Of a stretch of DNA of 64,000 nucleotides, positions 392 to 63,732 are shown piece by piece. The notes under the pieces are model-generated. The model worked only from the letters and a program-made list of their open reading frames with translations. It was not told the origin of the DNA and did no database searches. Position 1 is the stretch's first letter. The number at the start of each line of letters is the position of its first letter. Both the position numbers and the translations under genes were made by a program. Origin of the DNA: Tridacna crocea (taxonomy: Eukaryota > Mollusca > Bivalvia > Cardiida > Cardiidae); contig OX031063.1 of the NCBI GenBank assembly GCA_943736015.1, positions 42,982,672-43,046,671 of the forward strand. Reading direction: 5' to 3'.

Positions 392-621
392 ATAACTCTT
401 TACCAAACACCAAAATTTTAGACTATTCCAAATTGAAAGCATATACAGATGAAAAAATAAACATGATAGAAAAATTGAAATTTGACATCAGAAAGAGTAG
501 AAAACATTGTGGGAAAAGAAGGAAATGCTAGATACCAGCATTTTCTCCTTTTCTCACAGTGTTTTCAGAGGGCTTCTTCCTATGGGTTGTAAAAACTACA
601 GATTGTTTGGGAAATGGTTAA
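392..621 (+). repeat. Hairpin MITE, family A
   Basis: Begins TAACTCTTTACCAAAC and ends TTTGGGAAATGGTTAA. The central hairpin is slightly decayed (GGAAATGCTAG/TACCAGCATTTTCTCC). Family A design: TTAA, 13-17 bp terminal inverted repeats, ~80 bp arms unlike each other, and a central 32-bp inverted repeat. No coding capacity; non-autonomous. Confidence 0.85.
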
Positions 622-646
622 CTCAAGCAAATCACTAATGTCTTAC

Positions 647-798
647 ATATTGTCACCGTGTCCCAATCTCCCTCCATCTCCATTGCCCCACGAGTAGACT
701 TCCCCTTCTTTAGTCAGAGCAAGATAATGTTTCCCATCCGGATGTGCAGCCAGCTTGGACACTTCTTTATCCCCAAAACCCCCAACAATCCACATAGA
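647..798 (-). CDS. HERC2: HERC2 exon, RCC1 blade
   Basis: The minus strand encodes SMWIVGGFGDKEVSKLAAHP, then DGKHYLALTKEGEVYSWGNG and DGGRLGHGDN. The human counterpart reads NIVKIAAHSDGHHYLALAATGEVYSWGCGDGGRLGHGDT (recalled). The GEVYSWG..DGGRLGHG block is the diagnostic RCC1 signature. The acceptor is tatttcag and the donor at|gtaaga; the exon is 152 bp and starts in phase 0. It follows the 2007-2210 exon across a 1.2-kb intron holding one MITE. Confidence 0.95.
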
Positions 799-1720
799 CT
801 GAAATACAGACAAACTCCTAGCTTACAAAAGCTGTAAATACATGTTACGACTGTATCCAGTACAACACTCTATCAACACATTATAATCTGCACGTGACTT
901 TTGTTTTCACATTTGAACTCCAAATGGAATGACATAGGTAGATATCCTGAAAAGCTTGACAGGGTTTAGCAGTGACAGGAAAGGGGTCTGCTGAGACTTT
1001 GAAGATGTACTTCTTTGATCCTCTCTTGTACTTTTCATATGAGATTGTACATCAGCAAACACACCATACAACCTGAGCCTTTTACAGGTGAAAACAGGAA
1101 TGACTATCGTGACTGATTTCTTTTATTATTTGAACAAATTGACCTGAAAAAGACCTTTATGCAATGATTAATTAGAGAGTGAATATCTATATCATCATGT
1201 ATATTTGGACGGTACGGAAATTCTGTTAACGGCAAATTTCAGGTTTGACCCTTTAAATACCATTGGCAAAATAAGAAGCTTTTGAGATGACATGAATCCA
1301 AATCTGACTGCACAGAAATTGCATACACCTTGTAATTTACCAATTTTGCAAAACAATAAAATCATGTTTTTAATTATGTTTTCAGTAATCTTTAAGGCCA
1401 CATAAAGAGTTGAAGATGTTTCACGTAGTTCCACAAGCAGAAGACCATAGCCAAAGCTAAGTTCAGACTGTAATTCAAGCATGTAATATATAGTAAGAGA
1501 GGTCATATATCTCATGTTAATTTGTTGAAGTAATATCAATCACTTAAATCCATCATAAAGTATTCATGCTCTGAAAAACTAAGTCCTGGTAAGACAAAGA
1601 GTTGTAAAAATGTTCTCCTAATTTAGGACATTCAATTGAGTGATCATTGTTTATTCAGTATCCCTTAAAAACCTATTTGTAGTGGATATCTGACCACAAT
1701 CTGTGGCAAGATAAAAAGGA

Positions 1721-1940
1721 ATTATCCACACAATCATTACTTTTAACAACCCTGAGAATCAAAGCCTTTAAAAACATACTGGGAAAAGGAGAAAATGCTG
1801 GTAACCAGCATTTTCTTTTTCCCACAATGTTTTCTACCCTATCCAAATCAAATTTAAATATTTGATAAACTTTTATATTGTTGTCTGCAAAATGCTTCCA
1901 ATTTGGACTAGTCCAAAATTTTGTCCAGGTAAAGAGTTAA
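1721..1940 (-). repeat. Hairpin MITE, family A
   Basis: Intact hairpin at about 1784-1835. The left end is eroded; the right end GGTAAAGAGTTAA is good. Confidence 0.8.
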
Positions 1941-2006
1941 ACTCATGACATATTTTGGCCTATTCCTTACCAAGTATTAAGAAATGAAGAAATTTCTAGA
2001 ACTTAC

Positions 2007-2210
2007 TGCGGCCTCTGAAGTATAGGAGACGAGATACACTTTTCCATTTCCTGCAAGAACCAACATTGCTCTCTCTGCACAGACTATCTGTTTGACTCCA
2101 CCCACATCATTCAGGAAGTCCAATGTGACCGGTCCACCACCAGACTTCCCTCCTCTCCATGCAAACCATCCCCAAGCTATCACTTCTTGTGTTGCATTTG
2201 TTTTCTGACC
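2007..2210 (-). CDS. HERC2: HERC2 exon, start of first RCC1 propeller
   Basis: Translation begins GQKTNATQEVIAWGWFAWRG and continues GVKQIVCAERAMLVLAGNGKVYLVSYTSEAA. It matches human ...SLQEVIGWGLIGWK...GVTQIACAEKRFLILSRNGRVYTQAYNSD (recalled). The acceptor is gtttag (exon end 2210) and the donor gca|gtaagt (exon start 2007); phase is 0 at both ends. Good conservation of the GxxQIxCAE core supports a functional gene. Confidence 0.95.
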
Positions 2211-2375
2211 CTAAACAAGTGAAATAGACACAGGATACAGAAGGATCAGAATTAATGTTATGATATTTCTACACCATAGAAGAAAAATCACAGAAAAATT
2301 TCTTTGACATTTCTAAACTACATGTATTTTAATGATTTACTAAAAAAAATATATAATTCATGTATGTGGTTGAAG

Positions 2376-2520
2376 AAAACAAACTAAATGTTCCTCAAAG
2401 ATTACATTTGTCAATGTACGGGTGGAAAGCTTTCTGTAGAAAAAAGAAAAAATGCTTTCAGCCAACATTTTCTCCTGTTTTCTGGTATGTTTTCAAATAC
2501 TTCATCCTGAGAAAAGTTAT
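2376..2520 (+). repeat. Decayed family A MITE piece
   Basis: Recognisable by CTCAAAGATTACATTT, a weakened hairpin around 2450 and TCATCCTGAGAAAA; both ends are lost. Confidence 0.45.
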
Positions 2521-2549: not shown

Positions 2550-2779
2550 TTAACTTTTCACCATACAACAAAATTTTAGACTGGTCCAAATTGAAAGCAT
2601 TTGCAGATGACAAAATTAATGTACCTCAAAAGTTGAAATTTGTTCTAGGATCGGTGGAAAACATTAAGGGAAAAGGAGAAAATGCTGGTTACCAGCATTT
2701 TCTCCTTTTCCCAAAATGTTTTTAAAAAAAATTCTTTCTCAAAGTTGTGAAAACCAGGGATTGTTTGGTAAAGAGTTAA
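2550..2779 (+). repeat. Hairpin MITE, family A
   Basis: TTAA to TTAA copy with a perfect inner hairpin (GGGAAAAGGAGAAAATGCTG and its complement). Confidence 0.9.
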
Positions 2780-2905
2780 GCAAGCATCTATGGGACACTT
2801 GGAATAAAATTAAAAATTGACAGTATCAAATAATCACAGCAATAAATGCACTTGTCCAGAGATTGATTTTTTATTTAACTAGACAAGTACATGTAATATC
2901 TATCG

Positions 2906-3134
2906 TTACCCTTTACCAAAGAATTCCTGATTTTAACGACCCTGTGAAATACGCCTTTTGAAAACATAGAGGGAAAATAAGAAAATGCAGGAAACCAGCA
3001 TTTTCTCCATTACCCACAATGCTTTCTACCCTTTCAAAAACAAATTTCATTTTTTTCACTGATATTTCAATTGTCATCTGCAAACCCTTTAAATTTAGAC
3101 AAGTAAAAAATTTTAATGTCTGGAAAAGAGTAAA
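2906..3134 (-). repeat. Hairpin MITE, family A (diverged)
   Basis: Start TTACCCTTTACCAAAG; hairpin with several mismatches at about 2968-3020. It sits 46 bp past the donor of the 3181-3339 exon. Confidence 0.75.
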
Positions 3135-3339: not shown

Positions 3340-3487
3340 CTGAAAATGAAAAGTTGTAAACCATGACAAGTTTGGTATAGAGTGTACTGCCAATTTTTGA
3401 GACAACAATTATTGTGGATATATGAAAACAAGGACAGTAAAGATAGCATATTGTTCAAATTGAACACAAAAGCATAACAAATGGTCC

Positions 3488-3703
3488 AACTCTTTAGCAC
3501 ACAATCCTGAGGAAGAACCCTTTTGAAAACATTGTGAGAAAAGGAGAAAATGCTGGTTACCAGCATTTTCTCCTTTTCCCACAATGTTTTCTATCCAATC
3601 ATAGACAAATTCTATAACTTGAGCCATGATGAAATTGTTGTCTGCAAATGCTTTCAGTTTGGACAGGTCTAAAATTTTGTCATAATTTATGGTAAAGTGT
3701 TAA
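3488..3703 (-). repeat. Hairpin MITE, family A (cluster member 1)
   Basis: First of four copies that abut in the HERC2 intron 3340-4406. It ends at TTAA 3700-3703, where the next begins. Confidence 0.88.
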
Positions 3704-3936
3704 GAAACCATTTACAAGACGATTCCAGCTTTTAATAACAACCCTGAGAAGAACAGCTTTTGAAAACATTGTGAGAAAAGGAGATGCTCCTAACCAGCAT
3801 TTTCTCTTTTTTTTTTTCAAACATGTTTTCTTCACTACCGAGACAAATTTTAGTTTCTGTGCAACCTTTATTTTATCATCTGTAAATGCTTTCAATTTGG
3901 ACAAGTCCATAATTCTGTGTTTAGGCAAAAGGTTAA
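3700..3936 (-). repeat. Hairpin MITE, family A (cluster member 2)
   Basis: Shares its left TTAA with member 1 and its right TTAA (3933-3936) with member 3. One hairpin arm carries a small deletion (GGAGATGCTCCTAACC). Confidence 0.82.
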
Positions 3937-4169
3937 CTCTTTTCCTAACGACAAAATTTTAGACTGTTCTAATTAAAAATATTTGCATGTGTCACAATAG
4001 AAGTGACTGAAAATCTGAAATTTGTATTTGGGAAGATAGAAAACATTGCGGGAAAAGGATAAAATGCTGGTAAACAGCATTTTCTCCTTTTCCCACAATG
4101 TTTTCACAATTCAATTCCATCTGGGCTGTTAAAGAGTTAGAAACACAGGATTGTTCTGTAAAAGTTTAA
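3933..4169 (+). repeat. Hairpin MITE, family A (cluster member 3)
   Basis: Hairpin with AAAATGCTGGTAAACAGCATTTT. Its right end is extended to TTAA 4166-4169, shared with member 4. Confidence 0.82.
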
Positions 4170-4392
4170 CTCTTTACCAAACGAGAAAATTTTAGACTGG
4201 TCCAAAGTGAAAGCATTGCACATGACAAAATAAAGGTGACTAAAAAAATAGAAATTTGTTCTGGGAAGGGTAGAAAACACTGTGGGAAAAGGAGAAAATG
4301 CTGGTTACCAGCATTTTCTCCTTTTCCTACAGTGTTCTCAAAAGGCTTCTTTCTCAGGGGCATCAAAAGTAGGTCTTGTGTGGTAATGGGTT
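4166..4392 (+). repeat. Hairpin MITE, family A (cluster member 4)
   Basis: Intact hairpin with a B-like stem base in both arms (AACACTGTGGG / CCTACAGTGTT). Ends 15 bp from the 4407 exon boundary. Confidence 0.9.
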
Positions 4393-4406
4393 CAAAGTGA
4401 ACTCAC

Positions 4407-5080: not shown

Positions 5081-5461
5081 AAATTTCAGTTCTGGTTCTT
5101 TTAATATAAAACACCAAATAATAATCTCTTTTCACCAGACGCTGACATTTCTGTGTTATTTGTATCTAACTATTTGCCATACAATCTCCAGATTTGACAG
5201 CCCTGAGATAGAAAGATCTTGAAAACATCATGAGACAGGGAACAAAATTATGCGGGTATAAAATTTCAGTTTTGATTCTAATGATAAACCTCATTACTTT
5301 TAATATAAAAGATCAAATAATAATCACTTTTTTTTTTTCACTTTTCAATGTTCACCAGATGCTGACATTTCTGTGTTGTCCATATCTGACTACATGTATT
5401 TACCACACAATATCCAGATTTAACTACCCTGAGCTAGAAAGATCTTGAAAACATCATACAA
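5081..5461. repeat. Imperfect tandem duplication (~180-200 bp unit)
   Basis: 5081-5235 and about 5262-5461 share TTTTAATATAAAA, CACCAGA, GCTGACATTTCTGTGTT, ATCCAGATTT and GAAAGATCTTGAAAACATCAT. The unit includes the left arm of a family A MITE, so the duplication postdates that insertion. Confidence 0.75.
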
Positions 5462-5722
5462 AAGGGAAGAAATGCTGGTAATCAACATTTTCTCTTTATT
5501 CACTATGTTTTCTCCAATTTAATATCCAGTTCCACTATTCTAGTTCCACTTTTCTAGGAAAATTCATATTTGTTATCCAAAAATCCGTAGAATTCAGACA
5601 ATTCTAAAATTTTGTAGTTCTGTAAAAAGAAAATGCTTAAAACAAGCATTTTTCTCCTTTGCCCACAATACTTTCAAAGGGCTTTTTACTCAGCTTCATA
5701 AAAACAAAGGAGTATCATTAAC
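5395..5722 (-). repeat. Family A MITE followed by half a copy
   Basis: A decayed minus copy (to about 5625) runs into a plus right half (AAATGCTTAAAACAAGCATTTTT to 5721). Its terminal TTAA is the left flank of the next element. Confidence 0.6.
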
Positions 5723-5945
5723 CCTTTACTTCATAGATACTCATTTCTATGCATTGCTTGTAGGAGCCTTTTGAAAACATTGTGGCAAAAGGTGAAACTG
5801 CTCGTAACGAGCAATTTCACCTTTTGCCACAATGTTTTCTACACTATCAAAAGGTGTCATATACACATAAGAAACGGCTTCATGCTTGCTGTTATTTAGG
5901 GTCAACTAGAGATACCATAGAAATTCCTTATGGGGTAAGGGTTAA
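5718..5945 (+). repeat. Hairpin MITE, family C
   Basis: TTAACCCTTTACTTCATAG to GGGGTAAGGGTTAA. Hairpin stem TGGCAAAAGGTGAAACTGCTCG and complement. Family C keeps the A/B architecture but differs at paired stem positions. Ends 19 bp from the 5965-6222 exon. Confidence 0.92.
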
Positions 5946-6238: not shown

Positions 6239-6466
6239 TTAACCCTTTCCCAAACAAGCCCTTGTTTTTAACTGTCTGCAGTACAAGTCTTTTGAAAACA
6301 CGATGTGAAAAGGAGAAATTGCTCGTAACGAGCAATTTCTCCTTTTCCCACAGTGTTTTCTACCCATTTAGAGAACTTTCTGCCATTTTTATCAAATTTG
6401 AAATTGTCGTCTGCAAACTTTTTGAGTTCGGAAGAGTCTAAATTTTATCGTTTAGGAAAGGGTTAA
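6239..6466 (-). repeat. Hairpin MITE, family B
   Basis: Family B: TTAACCCTTTCCCAAAC ends and the core GAAATTGCTCGTAACGAGCAATTTC. Near-perfect, and 17 bp upstream of the exon acceptor at 6222. Confidence 0.92.
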
Positions 6467-6820: not shown

Positions 6821-6890
6821 GAGGACAGTGTAGATCAGAGATCAGACTGCACAGAATGTGCAGTCTGATCTTGATCTACACTGTACACAA
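6821..6890. repeat. Hairpin repeat family D (ACTGCAC core)
   Basis: GATCAGACTGCACAGAATGT then GCAGTCTGATCTTGATCTAC: an inverted repeat around a ~5-nt loop, with CAGTGTAGATC / GATCTACACTG outer arms. Recurs at 17.7, 31.6, 36.6, 37.0, 42.2 and 47.4 kb. Full copies start near GAAATGAAACTCTCAAGCC. Confidence 0.8.
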
Positions 6891-7268: not shown

Positions 7269-7497
7269 TTAACTCATTACCACACAGTCCCTACTTTTGA
7301 CGACCCTGAGAAAGAACTCTTTAGGAAACATTGTGGGAAAAGGAGAAAATGCTGGTAACCAGCATTTTCTCCTTTTCCAACAATGTTTTCTACCCTTCAC
7401 AAAAAATAATTCAAAATTTCAGTCACTTTTATTTTGTCTTCTCCAAATGCTTTCAATTTGGACCAGTCTAAAATCTTGTCGTGTGGTAATGAGTTAA
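7269..7497 (-). repeat. Hairpin MITE, family A
   Basis: Complete TTAA-to-TTAA copy with an intact hairpin, 37 bp from the weak donor at 7535. Confidence 0.92.
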
Positions 7498-8345: not shown

Positions 8346-8569
8346 TTAACCCTTTACTCCATAGATACTCATTTCTACACATTGCTTGTCCTTTGGAAAA
8401 CATTATGGCAAAAGGTGAAATTGCTCGTGACAAGCAATTTCACCTTTGGTCACAATGTTTTCTATGCTATCAAAAGGTGTCATTTACACATAAGAAATGG
8501 CTTCACCCTTGCTGTTATTTAGGATCAATCAGAGATGCCATAGGAATGCCTTATGGGGTAAAGGGTTAA
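8346..8569 (+). repeat. Hairpin MITE, family C
   Basis: TTAACCCTTTACTCCATAG to GGGGTAAAGGGTTAA; complete. Confidence 0.92.
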
Positions 8570-8675: not shown

Positions 8676-10350
8676 ACAAGAGGGCCATGATGGCCCTGTA
8701 TCGCTCCACTGGCTTTTTAACCCTTTACCACACAAATTGAAGTGTTCATGACCATGAAAAAGAGGGCCTTCAAAAACAATGACCACTGTCAGGCAATACA
8801 AGTAGATTAATTCATTGGCATGAAAGGTAAAATCCTTGGAAAAATAAGCTGAATGATAGAAACCTTACTCTGAATTTATTATTCACCTCATGTGAGCATA
8901 ACTATTAGCATCAAAATGAATCACACTCCTTGAAAACAGAATATTTTCTATCAAAAAACTTAATGTCTAGCACCAATCATGTATCAAAGCAGTTTGATAA
9001 TCAAGGGAAGTAAATAGTACCAAACTTAATCTTTCATGAAAAGAGTTATTTCTCTTGATTAATGTTTAAATTGAAGTGACTATATTTTGAAGCCCATGTT
9101 AAACTTGTGATCCCTGAATGGAGGCAATTTTTACCCCAGACCTACAATATGAAACTAGAATGTGTGTTTATAAACAAGAACATTTTTTAATCTTACCCAA
9201 TAAAAAGCCCTGTAAAACAAGTTTGCTCAATAAAAGGCCCTCTAAAATATGTGACCTATGAGACAGGTTTATCAAGTTTTCACTGTAAAAGCCAATGTGA
9301 AACTTGTGACCCCTGGGATAGGGTCAACTTGACCTCCAAAGTTAAAATTTGGGCCCTCTTGGTAGAGGCCCATAAGATAAAGCTACACGCAAAATTTGGT
9401 AGCCCTAGGCCTTATGGCTATGTACGAGTAGATTATTAAAGTTTTCCTATATAAGCCCATCTAAAACTTGTGACCCCCTGTGACGGGGCTAAATTTGACC
9501 CCAGGGCTATAATTTGGGCACCCTTTGGTAGTGACCCCCTAGATAAAGCTACATGCAAAATTTGATAGCCCTAGCCCTTACAGCTAGGTACGAGTAGATT
9601 ATTAAAGTTTCCCTATATAAGCCCATGTAAAATTTGTTACCCCCCCGGGGTGGGGCCAAATTTGACCCAAGGGCTATAATTTGGACACCCTTGGTAGAGG
9701 TCCACTAGATAAAGCTACATGCCAAATTTGGTAGTCCCAGGCCCTATGGCTAGGTGGAAGAAGAAATTTAAAGTTTTCCCTATATCAGCCCATGTAAAAC
9801 TTGTTACCCCCGGGGCAGGGCCAATTTTGACCCCAGGACTATAATTTGGACACTGTTGGTAGAGGTCCATTAGATAAAACTACATGCCAAATTTGGTAGC
9901 CCTAGGCCCTATGCCTAGGTAGAAGAGGAATTTTAAAGTTCTCTCTAAATAAGCCCATGTAAAACTTGTGACCCCCGGGGCGGGGCCAATTTTGACCCCA
10001 GGGCTATAATTTGAAGAAACTTAGTAGAGGTCCACTAGATAAAGCTACATGCAAAATTTGGTAGCCCTAGGCCTTACGGTTTCAGACAAGAAGATTTTCA
10101 AAGATTTTTAAAATTTTTCAGTTTTGTTGCCATGGCAACCAGAGTTTTTGAAGGAATTACATTCTTTCAAAAAATTCTGAAGAGGACTATGACAGGATCA
10201 TTTCTGTGAAGTTTCATCAAAATTGGATGGGTAGTTCCAGAGAAGAAGATGTTTAAAGAAAAAGTTAACGCACGGACGGACGGACGGATGGACGCATGAC
10301 GGACAACGGGCCATGACATAAGCCCGCTGGCCTTTGGCCAGTGGAGCTAA
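8676..10350 (+). mobile_element. Helitron-like non-autonomous element 1 (1.67 kb)
   Basis: Starts AACAAGAGGGCCATGATGGC, with a GGGCCATGATGGCCC hairpin and then GCTCCACTGGC. Ends with hairpin CTGGCCTTTGGCCAG, then TGGAGCTAAAA. The 5' GCTCCACTGGC and 3' GCCAGTGGAGC are exact inverted repeats. Inside are five to six tandem units of about 166 bp (GCCCATGTAAAACTTGT..., about 9092-10090), then GTTGCCATGGCAACC and a (GGAC)n tract near 10275. No open reading frame. Helitron-like placement is inferred from 3' hairpins and lack of an obvious target duplication; sequences of this kind are common in bivalve genomes. Confidence 0.8.
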
Positions 10351-12674: not shown

Positions 12675-12956
12675 ATAGTGCCGATCAAAATTAGTTAGGG
12701 TATCATTAATTTTCCTCTCCACAGTAGTATTTCCTTGTCTTTCTTGTAAAATACAAATGCATTGACATATAATTATGTACTGAGCGGTAATTCAGGCTTA
12801 TTCAGCCTTATGGCTGGTTAGCCAGTGAACCTGTTGAAGACCTTGTGGAATTGTTTTTACCTTTACCTAAACTTTTTGAAATAAAGTTCTGTGTTTAGAG
12901 AGGAATAAAGTCTGTGGTATTGTAGCAATGACAGAAAAAGATAGGCCCAGCTGGAT

Positions 12957-13186
12957 TTAACTTTACCAAACAACAAAATTTTAGACCTGTCCAAATTGAA
13001 AGCATTTTCAGATGACAAAATAAACATGACTCAAAAACTAAACCTTGACATTAGAAGGGTAGAAAAAATTGTGGGAAAAGGAGAAAATGCTGGTTACCAG
13101 CATTTTCTCCTTTTTCCATCATGTTTTCAGAGGGCTTCTTCCTCTGGTTTAAAAAAAAAAACCTGGGATTGTTTGGTAAAGATTTA
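12957..13186 (+). repeat. Hairpin MITE, family A
   Basis: TTAA to TTAA. Inner hairpin intact; the right arm has a run of A (13150-13160). Confidence 0.9.
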
Positions 13187-13508
13187 AAACACATCACCAC
13201 TGGATTACTAGCACTGATGTTTTAAACTGAGCTCCCTGCCTAGGTGCAAATAACATTAGTTGTAAAGATAATTTTAACCTTAAAAAAAAAAAACTACTTT
13301 AACAAAGAGCTTTAATCAAGATAAGTCTGCACAGAAGATGTACCCTGCCCTGAGATCAACACTGATAATTCACTGAAATTCTTGTACAGATAGCTGTTAA
13401 GTTAAAAGGGAAGTTTTTCCTTGGAATTGAAAGTAGAATGAACCATTTGACTGCCATGTCTGCCACATAAGTGATTTTTCACAATACAAAAACAATGTTT
13501 TGTTGTAT

Positions 13509-13838: not shown

Positions 13839-14322
13839 ATACCTTCACCCTTCATCAAAAAAGGAAAGTTTAGACTCATCCAAATTAACCCATTACCACA
13901 CAATCCTTACATTTAATGACCCTGAGAAAGAAGCCTTTTGAAAACACTGTGGGAAAAGGAGAAAATGTTGGTAACCAGCATTTTCTCCTTTTCCCACAAT
14001 GTTTTCTACTCTTCACAACACAAATTTCAAATTTTCAGTCAATCTTTTATGTCATCTGCAAATGCTTTTGATTTGGACAGCCTAAAATATTGTCATTTGG
14101 TAACAAGTTAAAAGCATTTTCCAGACGACAAATTCAACATTCAACTGATGGAACTAGTTTCTGAAGAAGAAGACAAAAATTTGGTAAAGGGAGTAAAATA
14201 CTGGTCACCAACGTTATTTTTTCCTTTCACCACAATAGTTTTTAGACCCTACTTTCCAAGCTAGCTCACTCATTCTGGGCCTTACTTTCCCAGTTCACTT
14301 CAACATGGGATTGTTTAGTATA
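13839..14322 (+). repeat. Outer family A MITE split by another MITE
   Basis: Left part 13839-13888 ends CTCATCCAAATTAA; right part resumes TTAAAAGCATTTTCCAGACG at 14108. Together they restore the family A order CCAAATTgAAAGCATTTgCAGACG around a TTAA created by a g-to-a change. The right part is diverged. Confidence 0.75.
13885..14111 (-). repeat. Hairpin MITE, family A (inserted in another copy)
   Basis: Complete copy lying exactly between duplicated TTAA within the outer copy 13839-14322, so TTAA is the target duplication. Confidence 0.9.
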
Positions 14323-14543
14323 CTACAAAAGTCAAGACGAATTTCCCATCACCAGATAATACCACAGACCACTTCCTGTTCAGAAAAGAGAAACTCTTTC
14401 TCTTAGCCTACAGACAACAAGGTTGTTTTTTTTGTTCTATAGCAATAAGACTAAGTTTTGAAAACATTGCATGGAAAAGAGAAATTCATTGTGATGCCCT
14501 ATTTCTCATATTGTCATACAGTTGTTGTCTGTTTGCACCTTAT

Positions 14544-14772
14544 TTAACTTTACCAAACAACAGAATTATAGACTGGTCCAAAATTCAAAGCATTTTTAGG
14601 CGAAAAAATAAATGTGGCTGAAAAACTGAAATATGGTCTGGGTAGGGTAGAAAATATGGTGGGAAAAGTAGAAAATGCTGGTGACCAGCATTATTCTCCT
14701 TTTTCCACCATGTTTTCAAAAGGATTCTTTTTCAGGGTAGTTAAAAGTCGGGATTGTTTAGTAAAGGGTTAA
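14544..14772 (+). repeat. Hairpin MITE, family A
   Basis: Complete. Loop altered to GCTGGTGACCAGC. Confidence 0.88.
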
Positions 14773-14845: not shown

Positions 14846-14923
14846 TTTCTTTTACCAGCACTGTTTTCAGAAGGCTTCTTCCTCTGGGTCGTAAAAATCA
14901 GGGATTGTTTGGTAATGGGTTAA
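14846..14923 (+). repeat. Right-half family A MITE
   Basis: Only the right arm, from ACCAGCACTGTTTTCAG to GGTAATGGGTTAA. Confidence 0.75.
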
Positions 14924-14993: not shown

Positions 14994-15221
14994 TTAACCC
15001 TTCCCCAAACGATAAATTTTGGACCCTTCCAAACCATAAAAGTTTGCAGACCACAATTTTTGATTTGGAGAAAATGGCAGAAAGTTCTCAAAAAGGGTAG
15101 AAAACACTGTGGGAAAAGGAGAAATTGCTCGTAACGAGCAATTTCTCCTTTTCCCACAGTGTTTTCAAAAGACTTTTACTGCAGACACGAAAAAACCAGG
15201 GCTTGTTTGGGAAAGGGTTAA
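14994..15221 (+). repeat. Hairpin MITE, family B
   Basis: Complete B copy with a perfect hairpin. Shares TTAA 15218-15221 with the family A copy that follows (GGGAAAGGG-TTAA-CCCTTTCCC). Confidence 0.93.
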
Positions 15222-19082: not shown

Positions 19083-19214
19083 AGGCCTACAAAAGTATTT
19101 GTGTTTAGGGTTTCCTGATCCTAGTTTGAAAATGCTCCAGACTCTAAACTTTTTCCACTATGATTGGAAAAAAAATCCTATCCGATGTGATTTGGGTATG
19201 TGGTCCAGATAAAA

Positions 19215-47455: not shown

Positions 47456-47467
47456 ATCTTCTTAGCA

Positions 47468-48223: not shown

Positions 48224-49125
48224 CAATTTTTGCTCTAGTTAGCTGAAAACTTGTATTAAGAAATACTATACATGTATTTACAAACGTTTCTTCCTAATAT
48301 ACTTTCAGAGCTTTCTCCGGCTAGAAGAATGACACCAAAAAAGGAACCATGATTCCAAGACAACTGCACCTTACAGGGACCACATGTTATGCAATATGGT
48401 TCTCATATATGTATAATTGGACATGCAGTCATTTAAACATTTAATTAAAGAAAAATAGTGCTGTATAGTATTAATTTTCTATGTTTACCATCTTTGCACG
48501 GCAAAGAAGTTCATGCTAGTATTTACCGGTACTGCTCAATAGTGAAAAGGGTATTAAAATCCTAACCGAGAAATGACACTAAATTAAAATAGCATTGCAG
48601 TAGACTGCTTTTGATTGCTTTTGATTGTGATTGTGATCAAATATGTTGCTCACAGTCAGCAATATCTATTTGCCATACTGTTTTCATCTCATTCTTTCAA
48701 TTATTTTTCTCCATTTGCCTCAGATTTTATCTAGTGTTAAAAGTAAAGTAAGGTTTCATGACTTTGTTAAATAAAGGACAAGCAATATTCTTGTTTATGT
48801 TTAGAACAAAATCCTTAATGCTCCTTGAAGAGTGAAAGCAATATACATGTAGTAAAATTCAGTCATTGACATTGTGTGGAAAAAGAAATTTCGTTACATA
48901 CAAGTCTTATTAGCTGCACAAAATTAATAGTCCTTTGAAAACATTGTGAGAAATGGCAAATTAAGAAACAATTTTGCATTTTTTAACAACATTTTTTTCT
49001 GAAGCAGAAATTTGCTTCATCAAGGGACCCAAATAACATGAGAATAATGCAAAAGTGTTTTGTTACTACAAATGTAATACAGATAAATATCTACAAAACT
49101 TTTAAGATTTCTCATGTTTATTTTG
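48224..49125. other. Mostly unique intron
   Basis: Only a short family A scrap at about 48930-49005 (CTTTGAAAACATTGTGAGAA). Confidence 0.5.
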
Positions 49126-49342
49126 TTTAATCTTTACCAACTGATAAAACTCTGCACTTCTTCAAATTCAAAGCATTTGCAGACAATTGATTGATTTTGA
49201 CTCACATTTTGCAATTTACCTATTAAAAGGTAGAAAACATTGTGTTGAAAGTAAAAATTATTAGTTGTCTTTTCACACAATGTCTCCTAAAGTATTTTTC
49301 TGCAGGGTTGTTAAAACTCAGGACTTTTTGGTAAAGACTTAC
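49126..49342 (+). repeat. Family A MITE, hairpin replaced
   Basis: Arms recognisable; the centre is AAAATTATTAGTTGTCTTTTC. Confidence 0.68.
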
Positions 49343-49673: not shown

Positions 49674-50090
49674 TTTAATCTTTTAACATTTAACAAAATT
49701 TTCATCATGTCTATTTTGAAAGCAAAGTTGGAGGATGAAAAATTTTAGCCTAAATGAAAGGAAACGTGAGAAATGTATAAAAAGCTGATGACCAGCTTTT
49801 TTCTCATCTTCCTTCAATGTTTTCAAAAGCCCTCTGCTTCAGGGTAATGAGGAACAAAATTGTTTGGTAAAGGGTTAACTCACAGAACAAAATTTCGAGT
49901 GGGTCAAGCCGAGAGGATTAGCAGGTGATATGCAAATGAACTGTTGAAATTTGTTTTTGAATGGGTGCAAAACACCGCAGAAAAAATGATTTCCAATATT
50001 TTCTCTTTTTCTCATATTTATTGTCCTGGCTTCCCTCCCCCTGGCTGTTTTGACACAAGCTTTTTTGATAAAGAGCCAACAAGATGCCTA
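49674..50090 (+). repeat. Two old family A MITEs sharing TTAA
   Basis: 49674-49878 and 49875-50090. The first has a short hairpin AAAAGCTGATGACCAGCTTTT. Confidence 0.7.
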
Positions 50091-51576: not shown

Positions 51577-51805
51577 TTAACTCATTACCACACAATCCCT
51601 ACTTTTGACGCCCCTGAGAAAGAAGCCTTTAGAAAACATTGTGGGAAAAGGAGAAAATGCTGGTAACCAGCATTTTCTCCTTTTCCCACAATGTTTATCT
51701 ACCCTTCACAAAACAAAATTCAAATTTTCAGTAACTTTTATTTTGTTGTCTGCATATCTATCAATTTGGACAAACCTAAAATTTTGTCGTTTGGTAATGA
51801 GTTAA
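51577..51805 (-). repeat. Hairpin MITE, family A
   Basis: Complete with a perfect hairpin. Confidence 0.93.
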
Positions 51806-52262: not shown

Positions 52263-52490
52263 TTAACTCTTTTCCAAACGACAAATATCAGACTCTTCCA
52301 AATTCAAAGAGTTGGCAGACGACAATTTAAAAAGCTGCAAAAATGGTGGAAAATTTGCTAGTAGTGGGAGAAAAGTATTTGATATAGGAGAAAATGCTTA
52401 TAACTAACAATTTCTCCTTATCCAACATGTTTTTCCAAAAGAATTTGATAGCACACATGTGATAACCCGTGTTTGTTTGGGAAAGTGTTG
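52263..52490 (+). repeat. Hairpin MITE, family B (old)
   Basis: Ends CTCTTTTCCAAACGAC / GTTTGGGAAAGTGTTGA; hairpin half A-like (GAGAAAATGCTTATAAC), half B-like (TAACAATTTCTCC). Confidence 0.8.
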
Positions 52491-52613
52491 AAAACAGGGC
52501 TAAGTTACTAAAATGTTGCTGTCCTAGGAAAGTATGATTTAAGAGGACATAAGTTTGCAAGGCATGCTTTCAATTTAAAGTCTTGTTTTCGAAAAATAAG
52601 AAGCCCCATGTAT

Positions 52614-52880
52614 TTATAAAATGAAGTTATAATTTACTCTGACATCCTGAAAAGACCAATGTTCACTGAATTCTAAAGGGCCCCCTCTTCGGAATACAAT
52701 TATTTCATTTTTTTGCATATTAACCTGTAGGTGGAATTGATTACAGAAGTCTGAAATACAATTCAATTGTTGCTGCAAGCTGTTCACCGTACATGTATGT
52801 ACACAGTGAGTGACATCGCCTGCATAAAGTATAAACTGATCTGGACTTATCTGATCTATGATAAAAATACCTTGACACTT
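52614..52880 (-). pseudogene. LINE reverse transcriptase fragment
   Basis: Minus-strand frame: QISPDQFILYAGDVTHCVHT, then LQQQLNCISDFCNQFHLQVN MQKNEIIVFRRGGPLEFSEHW. It matches the YADD(V/I)...LQ.QLD.L..YC..W.L.VN..KT..(V/I)F.(R/K)GG block of non-LTR reverse transcriptases; the catalytic YADD is YAGD here, so the copy is dead. Bordered on the left side by a family B MITE at 52886. Confidence 0.85.
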
Positions 52881-52885
52881 CTCCT

Positions 52886-53117
52886 TTAACCCTTTCCCAA
52901 ACAAGCCCTGGTATTTATTTACCTGTCTGCAGTAAAAGTCTTTTGAAAACACTGTGGGAAAAGGAGAAATTGCTCGTAACGAGCAATTTCTCTTTTTCCC
53001 ACAGCGTTTTCTACCCTTTTTGAGAACTTTCTGCCATTTTCTCAAAATCTAAAATTGTCATCTGCAAACTCTTTCAGTTTGGAAGAGTCCAAAATTTATT
53101 GTTTGGGAAAAGGTTAA
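52886..53117 (-). repeat. Hairpin MITE, family B
   Basis: Complete, perfect core GAAATTGCTCGTAACGAGCAATTTC. Confidence 0.93.
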
Positions 53118-53266: not shown

Positions 53267-53495
53267 TTAACTCATTACCACACGACAAAATTTTAGACTG
53301 GTCCAAATTGAAAGCAATTGCAGACGACAAAATAAAGGTGACTGAAAAATTGAAATTAGATCTGGGAAGGATAGAAAACACTGTGGGAAAAGGAGAAAAT
53401 GCTGGTTACCAGCATTTTCTCCTTTTCCTACAGTGTTTTCAAAAGGCTTCTTTCTCAGGGGCGTCAAAAGTAGGGATTGAGTGGTAATGGGTTAA
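53267..53495 (+). repeat. Hairpin MITE, family A
   Basis: Complete; stem base AACACTG / CAGTGTT in both arms. Confidence 0.93.
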
Positions 53496-54250
53496 TACAT
53501 TTCCATGTAATCGTCTTTTAGTAAGAATTTGAAAGATTTCAACATCCTTTTTTTTTATAAACTGCACAGGCTAGCATAATATTATATTAATACTTTTTGT
53601 AGATGTCTTTAACCCCCTTTTCACACGCCTAGACTCACACTTTCTGTATGCCCATATGTACCAGTGATGTCATAACAAAATAATATATTATTAGATTAAC
53701 AATAGGACTACATTGGACGAAAAGGATGAAAAACAATATTCATCAATATGGAGAACACTGTGGGATAAGGAGTAGTTGCTTTTCATAAGCAATTGCTCCT
53801 TTCCATTTAACATTTTCAAATACAGTCATTGAATGGTGTTTTGCACCACTTTCAACATTATTTCAGTCATATCATAACGACAACTCACAGATTGATGTGC
53901 TTCCCGGGTTTCACCTATATAAGGCTAGACTTATAAAGTGTAAGTAAAGACACTCCCACAAAAAAAAAAAACAGTGGATGACTGTGGATCTAGTGAGGCT
54001 CGTATCTAGACAAGTCCTACACTTTGTGACTGACGACCCCAATTTTCAAATTGGATAACCACTCCCTTGAATTTTCAAGGTACGCACTTTCCTCCTGAAA
54101 TTTTGACCAAGTAGGAATGTAGCAGTAAGATCCTTGTATATTGTTTGCGGGTATGTTGTGCCCGATCATACCAGTACACACACTCACAGGAAACACAAGA
54201 TGTTTCATGGCAGTAGACCTTGTAGTTTTTTAGTAATCACGGGGTCCCTT
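53496..54250. other. Mostly unique sequence
   Basis: A decayed B-like hairpin at 53742-53815 (TTGCTTTTCATAAGCAATTGCTCC). Minus strand 54017-54091 reads EESAYLENSREWLSNLKIGV VSHKV-stop after a fair acceptor (AATTTCAG), but no partner exon was found. Confidence 0.4.
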
Positions 54251-54478
54251 TTAACCCTTTACTCCATAGATACTCATTTCTATGCATTGCTTAAAGGAGC
54301 CTTGGGAAAACATTGTGGCAAAAGGTGAAATTGTTCTTGACAAGCAATTTCACCTTTTGTCACAATGTTTTCTATGCTATCAAAAGAGTCATTATACCCA
54401 TAAAAAACGGCATCATCCTTGCTGTTATTTACGGTCAATTAGAGATACCATGGAAATGCCCTATGGGGTAAAGGGTAA
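54251..54478 (+). repeat. Hairpin MITE, family C
   Basis: Complete; right end GGGGTAAAGGGTAA. Confidence 0.92.
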
Positions 54479-54676
54479 CTGGAGTTTAGTGGACAAACAA
54501 ACTCATAGACAAACTGTCATTCAGATAAAGAGCAAGTCTTTCAGTTTTTTTTTTTTTACTTACGTATCAATGTGTTTTTACCTCTCGTCTGTTTGTACCT
54601 TCATGTGAACAGTAATTGTACCTCTTACCAAAAAAAAAGTTAAATTATGCTGCAGCTCTAAAACTTCTATGTCATG

Positions 54677-56907: not shown

Positions 56908-57080
56908 TTAATCCTTACCCAAACAATCCGGACTATTCAAGATCCTGGAAAAAGTTTTTTTTTATAAGAAATATATGTGAAAAGGAGAAAATGTGGGTAA
57001 CCGGCATTTTCTCCTTTTTCAACAATCTTGTCTACTGTGCCCAGGTTAAAAAACCTCACAATTTGAAAAATTTGAATTAC
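56908..57080 (-). repeat. Truncated family A MITE
   Basis: TTAATCCTTACCCAAACAAT; core GAAAATGTGGGTAACCGGCATTTTC; right terminus missing. Confidence 0.75.
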
Positions 57081-57253: not shown

Positions 57254-57474
57254 TTAACTCTTTACCTAACAACAAATTTTTAGATTGCTTCAAATTGAAA
57301 GTACTTGCAGATGCCAAATGAATGTGACAAAAAAAAAATCAACATGTGTTGTAAAAAGTGAAGAAAGCATTGTGGGAAAGGAGACAATGCTGGTTACCAG
57401 CATTTTCTCCTTTTCTCACAATGTTTTCAAAGTCGCAGGGTCGTTAAAGTATGGATTGTGTGGTAAAGGGTTAA
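57254..57474 (+). repeat. Hairpin MITE, family A
   Basis: Complete ends; core GACAATGCTGGTTACCAGCATTTTC. Confidence 0.88.
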
Positions 57475-58516
57475 ACTGTCATCGATAAAGCATGGGCAAT
57501 TTTCTTCTGCAGTGACAAAATGAATAGTGCTGACTCTGTTTAAGGCTTTGACAAAATTTCAAATTATATAATTTGCAGTAAACAATTGCCCTTGACACAC
57601 CGATAATTGGGATGTTAAGCTTTGGTAAAATTACAGGAATAAAAATGACACCATTCTTGCCTGTACCTGTTCAACAATTAACCTCCTTCGAGTACACAAA
57701 ATATGTTCATTCATTTTGAAATATTCACAAAAATAATAGACACACTGGACACATAGCAGCCATTATTTCATGCTTTCCGGTAGGAAATCGAGAAATAGCA
57801 GTGAAAATATTCTTCGATCTTACACAGGTACGACCAGTGAAAATACCCATTTTCATGTTCTAGGTTAATTGCGTGTGCCTGACAACTAGATGGGAAATAT
57901 GACATCATTTATTTTACATTCCTGGTGTGTGACGAAATATTGTAATGCGTTGCTATGCGGGAGGGGTATGCCACGGGGAATAACAGAAAATAACTGTACT
58001 GGATTTTGATAAAGCTCCTCCCAGAAAGGGTTAAAAGCATGAAATAAATAGGATATTTTTTTTTTCAGTGAAAGATCGAAATTTATTTCATCTCGTGAAC
58101 ACCATAGGTAATATTTTCAGTCCATTCTTTGTGGAATTGTTAATACTTTTTTTCAAATGGAGTCTAATCTCGAAATAACCTGTAGTTTTCATGGCAAGGG
58201 TATTTTGCATTAGTGGAATGGTGTGTATTGAAAATGAGTTTATACAAATTTGCCTCTCTAAATCTCATTTTCCTGCAATTTTTACAGACAATAATAACAT
58301 AAGTATGTGGTATCATCTGACTTGGTTTTAGTATGGTATCATGTGACTAACAAGAAAACAAAATTGTCACAAACTTCCATTTACCACAATTGTTGACAAT
58401 TTGACAATAAATTTAGCCAATGTGTTGAAAGTTTTCTTTGAAATAGGTAGAAACATTGTGGTAGAAAGAAATAATGACGCTTTGCAGCATTCTATCCTTT
58501 TCAATGCTCCACAGTT
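57475..58516. other. Unassigned, with a weak inverted repeat
   Basis: TTATTTCATGCTTT (57766) and AAAAGCATGAAATAAAT (58033) are inverted, as are CAGTGAAAATATTCTTCGATC and GATCGAAATTTATTTC further in; possibly an old foldback element. A decayed family A piece lies at about 58430-58515. Confidence 0.4.
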
Positions 58517-58717
58517 TTAACCCTTTCCCAAACGACAGATTTTGGACTCTTCCAAACCAAAAGAGTTTGCAGACAACAATTTTTGATTTGGAGAAAAAGG
58601 CAGAAAAGTTCTTAAAAAGGGTAGAAAACACTGGGGGAAAAGGAGAAATTGCTCGTTACGTCAAAAGACCTTTACTGCAGGCACGTAAAAACCAGGGCTT
58701 GTTTGGGAAAGGGTTAA
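58517..58717 (+). repeat. Family B MITE lacking right hairpin arm
   Basis: Stem GAGAAATTGCTCGTTACG runs directly into TCAAAAGACCTTTACTGC; both TTAA ends present. Confidence 0.9.
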
Positions 58718-58747: not shown

Positions 58748-59438
58748 TAAGCCCTTTATCATACAATGCCGATTTTTTAAGACCCTGTGAAATAAGCCTT
58801 TTGAAAATGTAGTATACTGGTCTGTCCCACAGACAGATGCACATGTAGCCAGGTACTGGTATTTGGCGATATGTTGTACGTCCGTATCAACATGTGGTTC
58901 AGTAGTGCAGTTGGTTAGAGTGCAGGAATGGTGTTCCTGAGGCCCTGGGTTCAACTCCTGGTCGAGCCGCGATATTTTTCACCACTTGTTACATACGTAA
59001 ATAACACACTTATTAGAAAGATAGGGTAGCAGTGATTGAGTGATTCGTGGATGAATCTTCATGTAGCATGGAAGTATGTAGTATACTAGTCTATCTCACA
59101 GATAAATGTAAATGTAGCCAGGTACAGGTATTTGGCAATATATCGTGCGGCCCTATCGACATGTGGTTTGGTAGCTCACTTGATTAAAGTGCAGGAACGG
59201 TATTCCTGAGGCCCTGGAATCGAATCCCAATTGAGCTGCAATATTTTTCACCACCTGTTACAAAAACATTGTAGGAAAAAGAGAAAATGCTACTAACTAG
59301 TACTTTCTCCATTTTCCACAATGGTTTCTACACAATCAAAGAAAAGTTGCACAATTCCAGCCACACTGAAATTGTCGTCTGCAAATACTTCGAATCTGGA
59401 CTAGCATACAATTTTGCATTTGGTGAACAGGTAATTAA
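58748..59438 (-). repeat. Family A MITE split by a SINE pair
   Basis: Left part ends AAGCCTTTTGAAAA (58807); right part resumes AAAAACATTGTAGG (59262) through to GGTAATTAA. Confidence 0.82.
58808..59263 (+). mobile_element. tRNA-derived SINE, two units in tandem
   Basis: Units 58808-59076 and 59077-59263 both start TGTAGTATACT and contain TGTAGCCAGGTAC, CCTGAGGCCCTGG and ATATTTTTCACCAC. Unit 1 has a good A box (TAGTGCAGTTGG, 58892) and B box (GGTTCAACTCC, 58948); unit 2's B box is decayed (GAATCGAATCC). A-rich flanks AAAA suggest a short target duplication. Confidence 0.78.
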
Positions 59439-61424: not shown

Positions 61425-62493
61425 TCTCAAACCTACACAGTTTATATAAATTTACAACCCTATGACTATCAGTACGAAATCTTGTTAAGTTTGTTACTCT
61501 TTCTTCATAAGTCATAATAAGGTCCTATTTATGTATTTAATTCAAAATTGTTGCAAAAGAAGATAAATATTCCCGTCAAATGTAGTTCATGGTGGAATTC
61601 GTTATGGAAAGAGAAGCTTTTTTCTCAAATAGATGAACATGATAAAAGATCGTTGAGTAAAAATAAACACATTTGAACTTGAATCATACATAGTTGTTTT
61701 ATTTCATAAAATATACATATTACAGTCCATTGGGTACTTTCTTTTTCATTTTCGATTGCGCCAGTCCCGTCCTATGGATGTCTAAAAGGAAATTTCGGCA
61801 TCTGTAACTTATGTACTTCAAAAAAGGGGAAACACACTTCAAAGTATCAATGGTGTGGTAAAACATTCCGTTATTCATTCATTTATCTAGTACAGCTTCT
61901 TTAAGTTAATGTATTTCATGAACACTTTTACTTTTTTCCACTGTTTACACTTATTTTCGTCAATTGGAAGTTCTGTGTGGCACTGAACATGGATCAATAC
62001 ACCTAAAATAAAGAATAATTGATGGTCAAAGGGAGTAAACTCGTATATACTGATACCACTTTTTAATGATAGAGTTATGTCCCTTGTATTTGTGGACAGC
62101 ATAAAACCGAAGGCGAATAAACACCATTGCCGTTTGTGAAGACGATCTGTATCGAAAAGAAAAAAAGTTTGTAGAGCTGTCATTATTTCTGGTATGATTT
62201 AAGACAAGATTGTATATGCTGTTTTCTTTCAGACAAAAGAAAGAAAAACAAATTGCAGGCGTGGTTACTATTTTGTAAATAGGTGGTAGTCTCCCTTGTA
62301 TTTTATAACATGTTACATGTATATGTAAACAAGGCGGCCGCCAATATTTAAACTTGGAAGTAACAATTCGGTCTTTAAAGTAAGTGCTCTCGCAGAATCT
62401 AAATATAAATTTTATATAACAAAAAAGTATCATCTGATGAATGTATACGATAAAAAAGCTTCAGATTATGTTACAATTTAAACTTATAAACCA
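61425..62493. other. Unassigned AT-rich DNA
   Basis: Several open frames on the minus strand (61887-62433) but none with recognisable domains or codon pattern. Confidence 0.45.
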
Positions 62494-62580
62494 ACGGTGA
62501 TACTTTTTCATATTTGGACATTGCGCACCGTACCACCAGTCGACAAGTAAAATCGCCTTTAGGGACAGTTATCTGTACTA
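62494..62580. repeat. Dispersed repeat, partner of 15708-15800
   Basis: CTTTTTCATATTTGGACAT, ATCGCCTTTAGGGACAGTTA. A family D scrap (GTGCAGTCTGATCC) follows at about 62719. Confidence 0.72.
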
Positions 62581-63089
62581 CATGAGGGGAGGCCACTCTC
62601 TATTAATTTCAAAATAACGCTGCAGTATCAGGACTGCCTTTGACAGAAAAATACCAGCGGGCAAACCATAACTTTACTCTTGAGTCAGTACAGACTAAAC
62701 TTAGGTGTACTTATGAACGTGCAGTCTGATCCTTTATCTGCATGGGCCAATCAGAACATTTTCCAAAAGAAAACTCCTTTGAACTAGCCAAGATAAGGTT
62801 TTTAAAATCGGCTGGGAAGTTTCATTTTACCGTTTTAGCAGGATAAGGGTTAACAAAGGGTCTGGGTTTTTCCGATAGATCGTATGGGTATAAATTAACC
62901 CTGCACCGGTTCTTGAAGATTCGGTGTGACTGTTTCTAGTGGATGGAAAAAAGACTATTCCGTGGAGGGGGGGGTTAAGGGAGAGTACTCTTCATAACTA
63001 ATTGATAAACAGATTGTACGAGTTTCTTCCCTTTGACCATAAAATTACAATGGAATCTGACGGTGACCGTTTCCAGACCCGAGATCGAT

Positions 63090-63650
63090 CCACAATGATT
63101 TTTTAGGCAATGAAGTCTGCATTTGTTATCAGATTTTCGCGAAACTTGCAGTTTGTTGATCTTATTCATAGCATAAACCCTAATGATTTTGACGATAGTA
63201 TAACAAACAGTATGGGAAAAGTAGTTATTTCAAGTTAAAAATATCCACTTCTTGTTTACGTGATAAAGTCTACATTTGTGGTCAGATTTTTCTGAAACTT
63301 GCACTGTTTATTTATCTCAACAATTGCTTGAACCCTAATTATTTAAAAAAGAAACCCAACAAACAGTATGGCAAAAGTAGCCAATTCAAGTTGAAAATTT
63401 CCATTTCCTGTTTACATGATAAAGTTTGCATTTGTGGTTGGATTCCCGTGAAACTTGACCGATTTGTTTATCTCATCAATGGCTTAAATCTTATCGATTT
63501 TGAAAACAGTCTGATAACCAGTATGTGAAAAGTAACCATTATAGTTGAAATTTTGCATTTCTTGTTTACGCGATGAAGTCTGCATTTGTGGTCAGATTCT
63601 TTTGAAACTTGCACATTCGCTTCATATCATCAATAGCCTGAACCTGTATG
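63090..63650. repeat. ~150-bp tandem repeat, four units
   Basis: Each unit has TTTACGxGATxAAGTCTGCAT, TTTGTGGTCAGATT, GAAACTTGCA and CATCAATxGCxTGAACCxTA (about 63100, 63250, 63410, 63560). Confidence 0.85.
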
Positions 63651-63651
63651 A

Positions 63652-63732
63652 TTTTCTCCTTTTCTCTCAGTGTTTTCAAAAGGCTGCTATCTCAGGGTCG
63701 TAAAAACCAGGGATTGTTTGGTACAGGGTTAA
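63652..63732 (+). repeat. Right-half family A MITE
   Basis: TTTTCTCCTTTTCTCTCAGT to GGTACAGGGTTAA, at the end of the tandem repeat. Confidence 0.75.

Follow-up and report, generated by a model that had tools for sequence, protein, structure and literature searches.

A central palindrome, putatively a transposition signal, in a piggyBac-type MITE superfamily of Tridacna crocea

Why should a mobile element of only about 229 bp, which encodes no protein of its own, carry at its centre a palindrome of 67 bp? The question is raised by a 64,000-nucleotide stretch of the Tridacna crocea genome (assembly GCA_943736015.1, contig OX031063.1, forward-strand positions 42,982,672 to 43,046,671), referred to here in its full length as the window. 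Much of the window consists of short, TTAA-flanked miniature inverted-repeat transposable elements (MITEs), and each intact copy has such a palindrome between two spacers of unequal length.

Comparison of the copies with one another suggests that the palindrome has been constrained in the source lineages and has decayed at an approximately neutral rate once copies had landed. Since constraint in the sources followed by neutral decay points to a cis-acting signal in transposition rather than to a function for the host, we consider that the palindrome of this piggyBac-type superfamily is probably such a signal, and most likely a binding platform for a piggyBac-type transposase acting in trans. 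We give this reading, which draws on sequence comparison and on analogy with known transposases, a probability of roughly 0.55.

The superfamily, its target site and its layout

Iterative nhmmer searches, seeded with one copy each from families A, B, and C, found 108 non-overlapping pieces of the superfamily, of which 59 are near full length (~229 bp) and occur in both orientations. Altogether, 19,932 bases lie under any MITE match, and at 31% of the window this is closer to a third than to the quarter estimated in the original prediction. The consensus length of 228-229 bp is too short for a transposase gene, making the elements short and non-coding; the only open reading frame (ORF) of 150 amino acids or more with a start codon spans an A copy and a B copy. 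The terminus pattern TTAACCCTTTACC, with up to two mismatches allowed, was found 105 times where 2.3 occurrences would be expected. If a strong palindrome is defined by 24-bp arms that are at least 85% paired around a spacer of 0-4, the window has 31, and none remains once the 108 pieces are masked. In three shuffled windows (approximately dinucleotide-preserving), there were no strong palindromes and no matches to the second-round nhmmer models. The feature is real, and the 108 pieces and the shuffled controls confirm the predicted swarm of short TTAA/CCC elements with a central hairpin in both orientations.

By likeness of their outer arms to one reference each, the near-full copies comprise 8 A, 6 B, and 45 C. 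We split C by eye, on terminal repeats and outer-arm likeness, into a young group (16 copies) and an old group (29 copies, or 28 without 49869-50079). All 59 copies were used for family assignment, TTAA ends, deletion counts, and a simple compensation shuffle. Two copies that are too degenerate (49869-50079 and 52263-52491) were left out of the trees, the 57-copy bootstrap, and the check on one-sidedness at pair 8. The former was also left out of the analyses of 44 C copies (rate-aware compensation null and region divergence), and the latter was excluded from the B group in the consensus and geometry work and in a first count by cells.

Both ends have an exact TTAA no more than 4 bases away in 32/59 copies, one end has it in 21/59, and neither does in 6/59; the chance of a TTAA equally close to a random position is 7.5%. 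Two pairs of neighboring copies have one TTAA in common (3933-3936 and 15218-15221). Five near-full copies are nested inside older copies of the superfamily; when their flanks are joined, the sequence aligns to the C consensus across the junction and one target site is restored, which is TTAA or 1-2 bases away from it. For 38434-38663 and 21378-21608, the target in the C consensus is an exact TTAA. For 13885-14111 it is TTGA, and a paralogue (44129-44181) has TTAA. For 46062-46290 and 18174-18391 it is 1-2 bases off TTAA, and the alignment is weaker. As there is one target in each empty site and two flanking TTAA in each filled one, we take TTAA to be a duplicated target, as in piggyBac. A candidate empty site for copy 41871-42100, found by BLAST, aligned poorly and was not used.

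The termini are of the form CCC...GGG (consensus ends CCCTTTAC, CCCTTTCC, and CCCATTACC), with the C right end reading CTC. Both features of a piggyBac-type MITE, the TTAA target-site duplication and the CCC/GGG terminal repeat, were therefore found, and the duplication at the five nested insertions together with the termini supports the piggyBac-type assignment proposed earlier. The data likewise support the view that the elements are one superfamily of non-autonomous piggyBac-type MITEs, which would insert into and duplicate TTAA.

In the family consensuses, the palindrome has 33-bp arms (up to 35) and a 1-nt spacer, in place of the 32-bp arms and 2-4 nt loop first described. The order is TTAA-CCC terminal repeat, 55 bp, the 67-bp palindrome, 106 or 107 bp, and the other terminus; the four consensuses measure 55-67-107 bp (A and both C groups) and 55-67-106 bp (B). 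This geometry is constant although the spacer sequences have turned over. Of the three families with unrelated outer arms and a single layout that had been predicted, the layout stands. The outer arms of B and C, however, are homologous, at 66-71% identity (between-family values of 0.69-0.81 from one alignment, with cheap gap extension and gaps omitted, are inflated, and we rely on 66-71%). Family A is largely unrecognizable, its left spacer being weakly similar to those of B and C (p 0.002-0.04) and its right spacer not recognizably so (p 0.09-0.26).

The hairpins of B and both C consensuses pair perfectly, that of A has one G.T (pair 13), and the single spacer nucleotide is identical in all four. 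The arms of B and C differ at pairs 8, 26, and 31, each on both arms, and those of A and C at pairs 14, 21, 26, and 31 on both arms, with a further difference at pair 13 that is confined to the right arm. Thus, all differences between family consensuses are two-armed (pairs 8, 14, 21, 26, and 31) except that at pair 13 in A. By simple counting with independent arms, the probability of such coincidence is ~7e-6 for B and C and 1.5e-6 for A and C. The predicted fold of copy 41871-42100 is strong (z -9.9). Among the inverted repeats listed in the copies, those at the termini and the palindrome in the middle are the only kinds that appear.

Constraint on the palindrome before and after insertion

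Variants found in one copy per group (singletons) approximate mutations after insertion, and those shared by at least two copies approximate change at the source. In a column bootstrap over four groups and 57 copies, the hairpin-to-spacer ratio per column was 0.90 (confidence interval (CI) 0.72-1.11) for singletons and 0.50 (CI 0.36-0.67) for shared variants, giving a ratio of ratios (shared/singleton) of 0.56 (0.38-0.80). The point estimates had the same direction at A/T sites (0.46, 0.23-0.78) and at G/C sites (0.63, 0.38-1.02). In young C alone the ratio of ratios was 0.43 (0.13-0.98), and in B (5 copies) it was 0, with zero shared hairpin variants. In the first count, made by cells, B and both C groups gave a matching result; for family A, neither of the differences reached significance. 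Across 44 C copies, the hairpin diverges from the old-C consensus by 0.080, the terminal repeats by 0.159, and the spacers by 0.20.

Parsimony on trees of the 57 copies gave the same picture. With a tree built from all sites, the ratio of internal to terminal changes was 0.22 in the hairpin versus 0.42 in the spacers (Fisher p 8e-5); with a tree built from non-hairpin sites it was 0.17 versus 0.45 (p 2e-9), and in C alone 0.14 versus 0.30 (p 1e-4). The all-site figure is the fairest, because a tree from non-hairpin sites favors the result. On terminal branches, too, the hairpin has fewer changes per column than the spacers (3.3-4.0 versus 5.0-5.8), which would follow if old copies, with their long terminal branches, had spent part of that time as sources.

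The comparison of hairpin and neutral divergence thus has a divided outcome: after insertion the palindrome diverges about as fast as the spacers, and between source lineages about half as fast. Constraint on inserted copies, as would mark a repeat exapted by the host, was not detected, the singleton interval being still compatible with weak constraint. The original prediction had offered two explanations for the hairpin. The idea that it helps the element to move finds support in the constraint seen among sources and the near-neutral decay of landed copies, a support that does not extend to cruciform or hairpin-mediated copying in particular; the alternative, that the host retained it for a different purpose, is left unsupported.

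What the palindrome may do

MITEs are usually thought to need their end regions only. An inner palindrome with a lower rate of evolution than the tips in the sources, and with free decay in landed copies, is a probable mobilization sequence that is not terminal. It follows as a testable claim that a piggyBac-type transposase may need more than the terminal repeats, with the constant 55/107 spacing supplying the geometry.

Known transposases offer a candidate partner. The piggyBac and piggyBat enzymes bind palindromic inner repeats through a dimer of the cysteine-rich domain (CRD), and only asymmetric end pairs are fully active in cells with the native piggyBac enzyme (PMC7351741, PMC11707139). 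Extra binding sites increase activity (PMC7351741). Inner inverted repeats also occur in the piggyBac-like elements of humans (PMC12324416). The piggyBac element of Trichoplusia ni (Ifp2) resembles the MITEs in its TTAA targeting, its asymmetric ends (short left, long right), its inner palindromes bound by a CRD dimer (PMC7351741, PMC11707139), and the TTAACCC at both ends (PMC12324416); it differs in having a 19-bp palindrome per end and a transposase gene between, where the MITEs have one central 67-bp palindrome and no gene. Human MER75, MER85, and Looper share TTAA duplications and inner inverted repeats that could in theory form hairpins or cruciforms, but theirs are subterminal, whereas the 33-bp arms of the MITEs abut in one central palindrome (PMC12324416; the genome scan described there used arms of 5-15 nt and spacers of 2-10 nt). 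In piggyBat of Myotis lucifugus, the transposase binds a repeated motif and an imperfect palindrome, but its three short imperfect palindromes are at the left end only (PMC11707139).

By analogy, the palindrome would be an enlarged and centrally placed counterpart of the CRD-bound repeats, and its arms may be fused inner repeats of the piggyBac type. With almost no interior to the element, the inner repeats of the two ends would meet and resemble a single hairpin. Loss of the palindrome would end the amplification of a source, and landed copies would then be free to decay. The suggestion that a large central hairpin is not standard in piggyBac MITEs has to be qualified, since CRD-bound palindromic inner repeats (PMC7351741, PMC11707139) and the inner inverted repeats of human piggyBac-like elements (PMC12324416) are known, and it holds insofar as the available text of these papers describes no single central palindrome of 67 bp. 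Among the papers listed by literature searches that lacked most subscription journals, we recognized none that describes a large palindrome at the center of such a MITE. We regard the hairpin MITEs as a variant form of the known piggyBac-type MITEs.

A bolder version, to which we attach considerably less weight, is that the palindrome could be a single common assembly site for both ends, 55 and 107 bp away, replacing separate CRD sites near each end. This would be a new transpososome layout, and it could make the MITEs unusually good substrates and so explain their extreme density.

Several observations weigh against a transposase-binding signal conserved in the sources. Shared variants include recurrent mutations, which blur both regions and make the split between source and post-insertion change approximate. 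The ratio of ratios is not significant in old C alone (0.68, 0.42-1.11) or in A alone (0.62, 0.00-2.46). Hairpin changes on internal branches are mostly one-sided (46:3 on the all-site tree, 37:3 on the non-hairpin tree, and 27:1 in C alone), an excess that would not be expected if pairing were strictly required. In piggyBac, the sites are close to the two ends and measure 19 bp, as opposed to a single central palindrome of 67 bp here (PMC7351741, PMC11707139). Copy 15218-15446 gives some room to homogenization by recombination. Finally, binding is something that we infer, as neither a transposase nor an autonomous relative with matching ends was found in the window. No transposase domains or remnants turned up in 7 ORFs plus 49 ORFs (at least 75 amino acids, less than 35% MITE), a non-exhaustive scan given that the window has 145 ORFs of at least 70 amino acids. 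A search for matching ends spaced 260-4000 bp apart, as longer elements would have, yielded four pairs, all of which join ends of separate copies.

Selection for a DNA structure, namely a cruciform or a single-strand hairpin in replication or transposition, instead of for a bound sequence, is an unlikely reading, but one with real points in its favor. All five left-arm differences among the consensuses are compensated on the right arm, the fold is strong, the same 1-nt spacer recurs in the four consensuses, and compensated changes at the level of copies number 25 versus 14.4 expected (p 0.0005, simple shuffle, 59 copies). That excess shrinks, however, under a null model that allows for rates differing among copies and sites (20 versus 11.7, p 0.009, 44 C copies), and the one-sided changes that dominate internal branches tell against the structural reading as well. 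Deletions of at least 4 bp are not enriched in the hairpin (8/26 versus 34% expected, 59 copies), so there is no sign of cruciform fragility. In the piggyBac mechanism, the tips of the excised element form TTAA hairpins (PMC7351741), from which we would suppose that piggyBac needs no hairpin structure farther in. Moreover, sequence is conserved as well as pairing. Conserved arm sequence together with long-term agreement of the arms would be expected of a protein-binding sequence that is present twice and recognized by one transposase, as is the case for terminal repeats.

About equally doubtful is homogenization of the hairpin without selection, through copy-to-copy recombination or gene conversion at the palindrome, or through template-switch correction between the arms. 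The compensated changes in the 44 C copies could be read in this way, as could the possible mosaic 15218-15446, with its pair-8 mismatch within the left arm. This copy has B-like terminal repeats (1.0, 1.0) and a B-like left spacer (0.94), and its hairpin scores 0.99 to C versus 0.93 to B; the right spacer is ambiguous, with an inner half that scores 0.63-0.76 to all groups and an outer half that scores 0.89 to young C versus 0.80 to B. It may come from recombination, or represent an intermediate lineage. Yet the excess falls to 17 versus 11.3 (p 0.047) without the shared pair-8 variant, and the C at pair 8 is also one-sided in two other C copies, which weakens the mosaic reading. Arm-to-arm correction alone should pair changes and not reduce shared divergence, and conversion strong enough to halve the shared variants should also erase singletons, yet these stand at about the spacer level.

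We think it improbable that the hairpin acts as RNA, through double-stranded read-through transcripts whose processing or editing would influence how the element is silenced or what becomes of it in the nucleus, and would be under selection in the sources. The near-perfect 33-bp stem would suit such a role, but no copy gave an Rfam match at the gathering score. The consensus differences, which are Watson-Crick to Watson-Crick except for the G.T at pair 13 of A, count against it too, while being compatible with RNA all the same. We hold it no more credible that the MITEs derive from a TTAA-targeting transposon outside piggyBac with convergent ends. The lack of a transposase in the scanned ORFs leaves room for one, but TTAA duplication with CCC...GGG termini is the piggyBac signature. 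In addition, TTAACCC is common to the ends of Ifp2 and Tcr-pble (PMC12324416). That landed copies have a host function (e.g., in chromatin or regulation) that keeps the hairpin is very hard to credit, as for all their density (31% of the window) singletons are about equally frequent in hairpin and spacers and several landed copies have deleted or broken hairpins.

Copies in the window and neighboring observations

The rows for families A, B, and C are the near-full nhmmer copies, and the later rows are partial pieces; strand is given in brackets.

5718-5945 (+) A, near full, TTAA at both ends
8346-8569 (+) A, near full
18855-19083 (+) A, near full
28105-28339 (+) A, near full
33374-33609 (-) A, near full, 7 bp inserted at apex of hairpin
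38434-38663 (+) A, inside C copy, target TTAA in C consensus
46062-46290 (+) A, inside C copy
54251-54479 (+) A, near full
6239-6466 (+) B, near full
14994-15221 (-) B, near full, perfect palindrome, TTAA in common with next copy
40555-40781 (-) B, near full
52263-52491 (-) B-like, degenerate
52886-53117 (+) B, near full
58517-58717 (-) B, 28-bp deletion in hairpin
15218-15446 (+) possible B/C mosaic, counted as C
392-621 (-) C
1715-1940 (+) C
2550-2779 (-) C
2905-3134 (+) C
3486-3703 (+) C
3704-3936 (+) C, TTAA in common with next copy
3933-4169 (-) C
4166-4394 (-) C
5392-5633 (+) C, diverged
7269-7497 (+) C
12955-13187 (-) C
13885-14111 (+) C, inside another C copy
14542-14772 (-) C
16591-16817 (+) C
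18174-18391 (-) C, 13-bp deletion in left arm; inside another C copy (weaker case)
18641-18851 (+) C, 20-bp deletion in hairpin
19513-19742 (+) C, diverged, three compensated pairs
19953-20182 (+) C
20402-20609 (-) C
20931-21156 (-) C, 11-bp deletion in hairpin
21378-21608 (+) C, inside another C copy, target TTAA in C consensus
21799-22029 (+) C
22026-22254 (+) C, diverged
26301-26517 (-) C, 11-bp deletion in hairpin
27561-27785 (+) C
27782-28001 (+) C
33607-33812 (-) C
35417-35648 (+) C
37225-37451 (+) C
37972-38197 (-) C
39163-39390 (+) C
40195-40423 (-) C
40778-41003 (-) C, diverged
41871-42100 (+) C, perfect palindrome with 35-bp arms at 41925-41995
43209-43430 (-) C, diverged
43974-44202 (+) C, diverged
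45666-45894 (-) C
47454-47697 (-) C
49126-49342 (-) C, diverged
49675-49878 (-) C, diverged
49869-50079 (-) C-like, very degenerate
51577-51805 (+) C, perfect hairpin
53267-53495 (-) C
57254-57474 (-) C
2367-2513 (-) partial
5167-5257 (+) partial
5627-5714 (-) partial
8718-8781 (+) left-end piece
14104-14257 (-) partial
14848-14922 (-) left-end piece
16394-16594 (-) partial
18039-18213 (+) partial
20224-20394 (+) partial
20696-20782 (-) partial (weak)
21605-21665 (+) remainder of C copy split by 21378-21608
22855-23022 (+) partial
23029-23119 (-) right-end piece
24538-24667 (-) left half, perfect B-type palindrome
24996-25084 (-) partial (weak)
25317-25524 (+) partial
26747-26947 (+) partial
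26920-27039 (-) partial
28807-28906 (-) partial
28905-29099 (+) partial
29579-29697 (+) partial
30160-30248 (+) partial
31909-32042 (+) right part, left arm lost
32198-32335 (+) partial
36071-36195 (-) partial
36196-36359 (-) partial
38221-38397 (-) partial
38660-38727 (+) right-end part of C copy split by A insertion 38434-38663
39421-39628 (+) partial
41311-41391 (+) left part of deleted copy
41391-41447 (+) right part of deleted copy
41447-41510 (+) partial (weak)
42505-42656 (+) partial
42697-42781 (-) right-end piece
42877-43005 (-) partial
43477-43592 (+) partial
43596-43783 (+) partial
45505-45657 (+) partial
45894-46078 (-) C piece adjoining A insertion 46062-46290
46341-46484 (-) partial
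47853-48016 (+) partial
48035-48220 (+) partial
48928-49028 (+) partial (weak)
53748-53819 (+) diverged hairpin
56909-57067 (+) partial
58380-58515 (-) partial
58751-58808 (+) left-end piece
59262-59430 (+) partial
63651-63731 (-) left end and ~27 nt of left hairpin arm, opening into ~156-bp tandem array

The last of these pieces belongs to a candidate longer relative of 838 bp (62895-63732), which is TTAA-ended and whose ends, TTAACCCTGCACC and TTAACCCTGTACC, are alike at 12/13 positions. It has one C-like left end and ~27 nt of left arm, followed by the ~156-bp tandem array. Three of the tandem units contain, in opposite orientation, a motif that agrees with the B arm at 17, 16, and 14 of the positions in a 20-base stretch, and the last, short unit has no arm motif (9/20). 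Shuffling of the array gave p <=0.006 for the best arm match, uncorrected for the choice of region. If the motifs are real, this one element hints that arms might exist apart from the hairpin. With its tandem core between TTAA ends, it can be likened to the MITEs containing tandem repeats that are reportedly found in the bivalve Donax trunculus. The solo hairpin at 53748-53819 is diverged; a TTAA ~54 nt to its left fits the geometry, none lies at the expected right end, and it is possibly an older fourth family.

Outside the window, a 21-base arm pattern gave one match among viral contigs and three among genome contigs, which we judged to be chance; at these four loci the MITE models aligned over stretches of at most ~55 bases (best E 8.5e-6), none with ends. 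A 31-base hairpin pattern had no match in viral contigs.

Other features of the window were recorded in passing. An RCC1-repeat stretch, probably an exon, lies at 2-244 (-), and its best PDB match is HERC2; the window may be an intron or flank of a HERC2-like gene. This stretch and the sparseness of ORFs mark the DNA as eukaryotic, and the satellite arrays would fit a bivalve. An ORF at 52614-53048 (-), which overlaps a B copy, has a weak RVT_1 match (E 0.076, under the curated cut-off). Counted from stop to stop, one more frame of at least 150 amino acids exists, at 44783-45238, outside MITE copies. Its 151-amino-acid open frame, 44786-45238 (-), has no Pfam match, and we take it to resemble the end of a non-LTR (long terminal repeat) reverse transcriptase. 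The sole Rfam match in the window, at 58896-58970 (+), is tRNA-Thr-like (anticodon GGT) and could be the head of a short interspersed nuclear element or a pseudogene. Tandem arrays with units of ~165-166 bp occupy 9274-10073 and 23264-24306 (4.8 and 6.3 copies), with no MITE match inside them. A 233-bp unit is tandemly duplicated at 17077-17548, and this duplication is probably recent, as 99% of positions match. A perfect hairpin with 15-bp arms (AGATCAGACTGCACA/TGTGCAGTCTGATCT) and a 3-nt loop lies outside the MITEs at 6839-6871.

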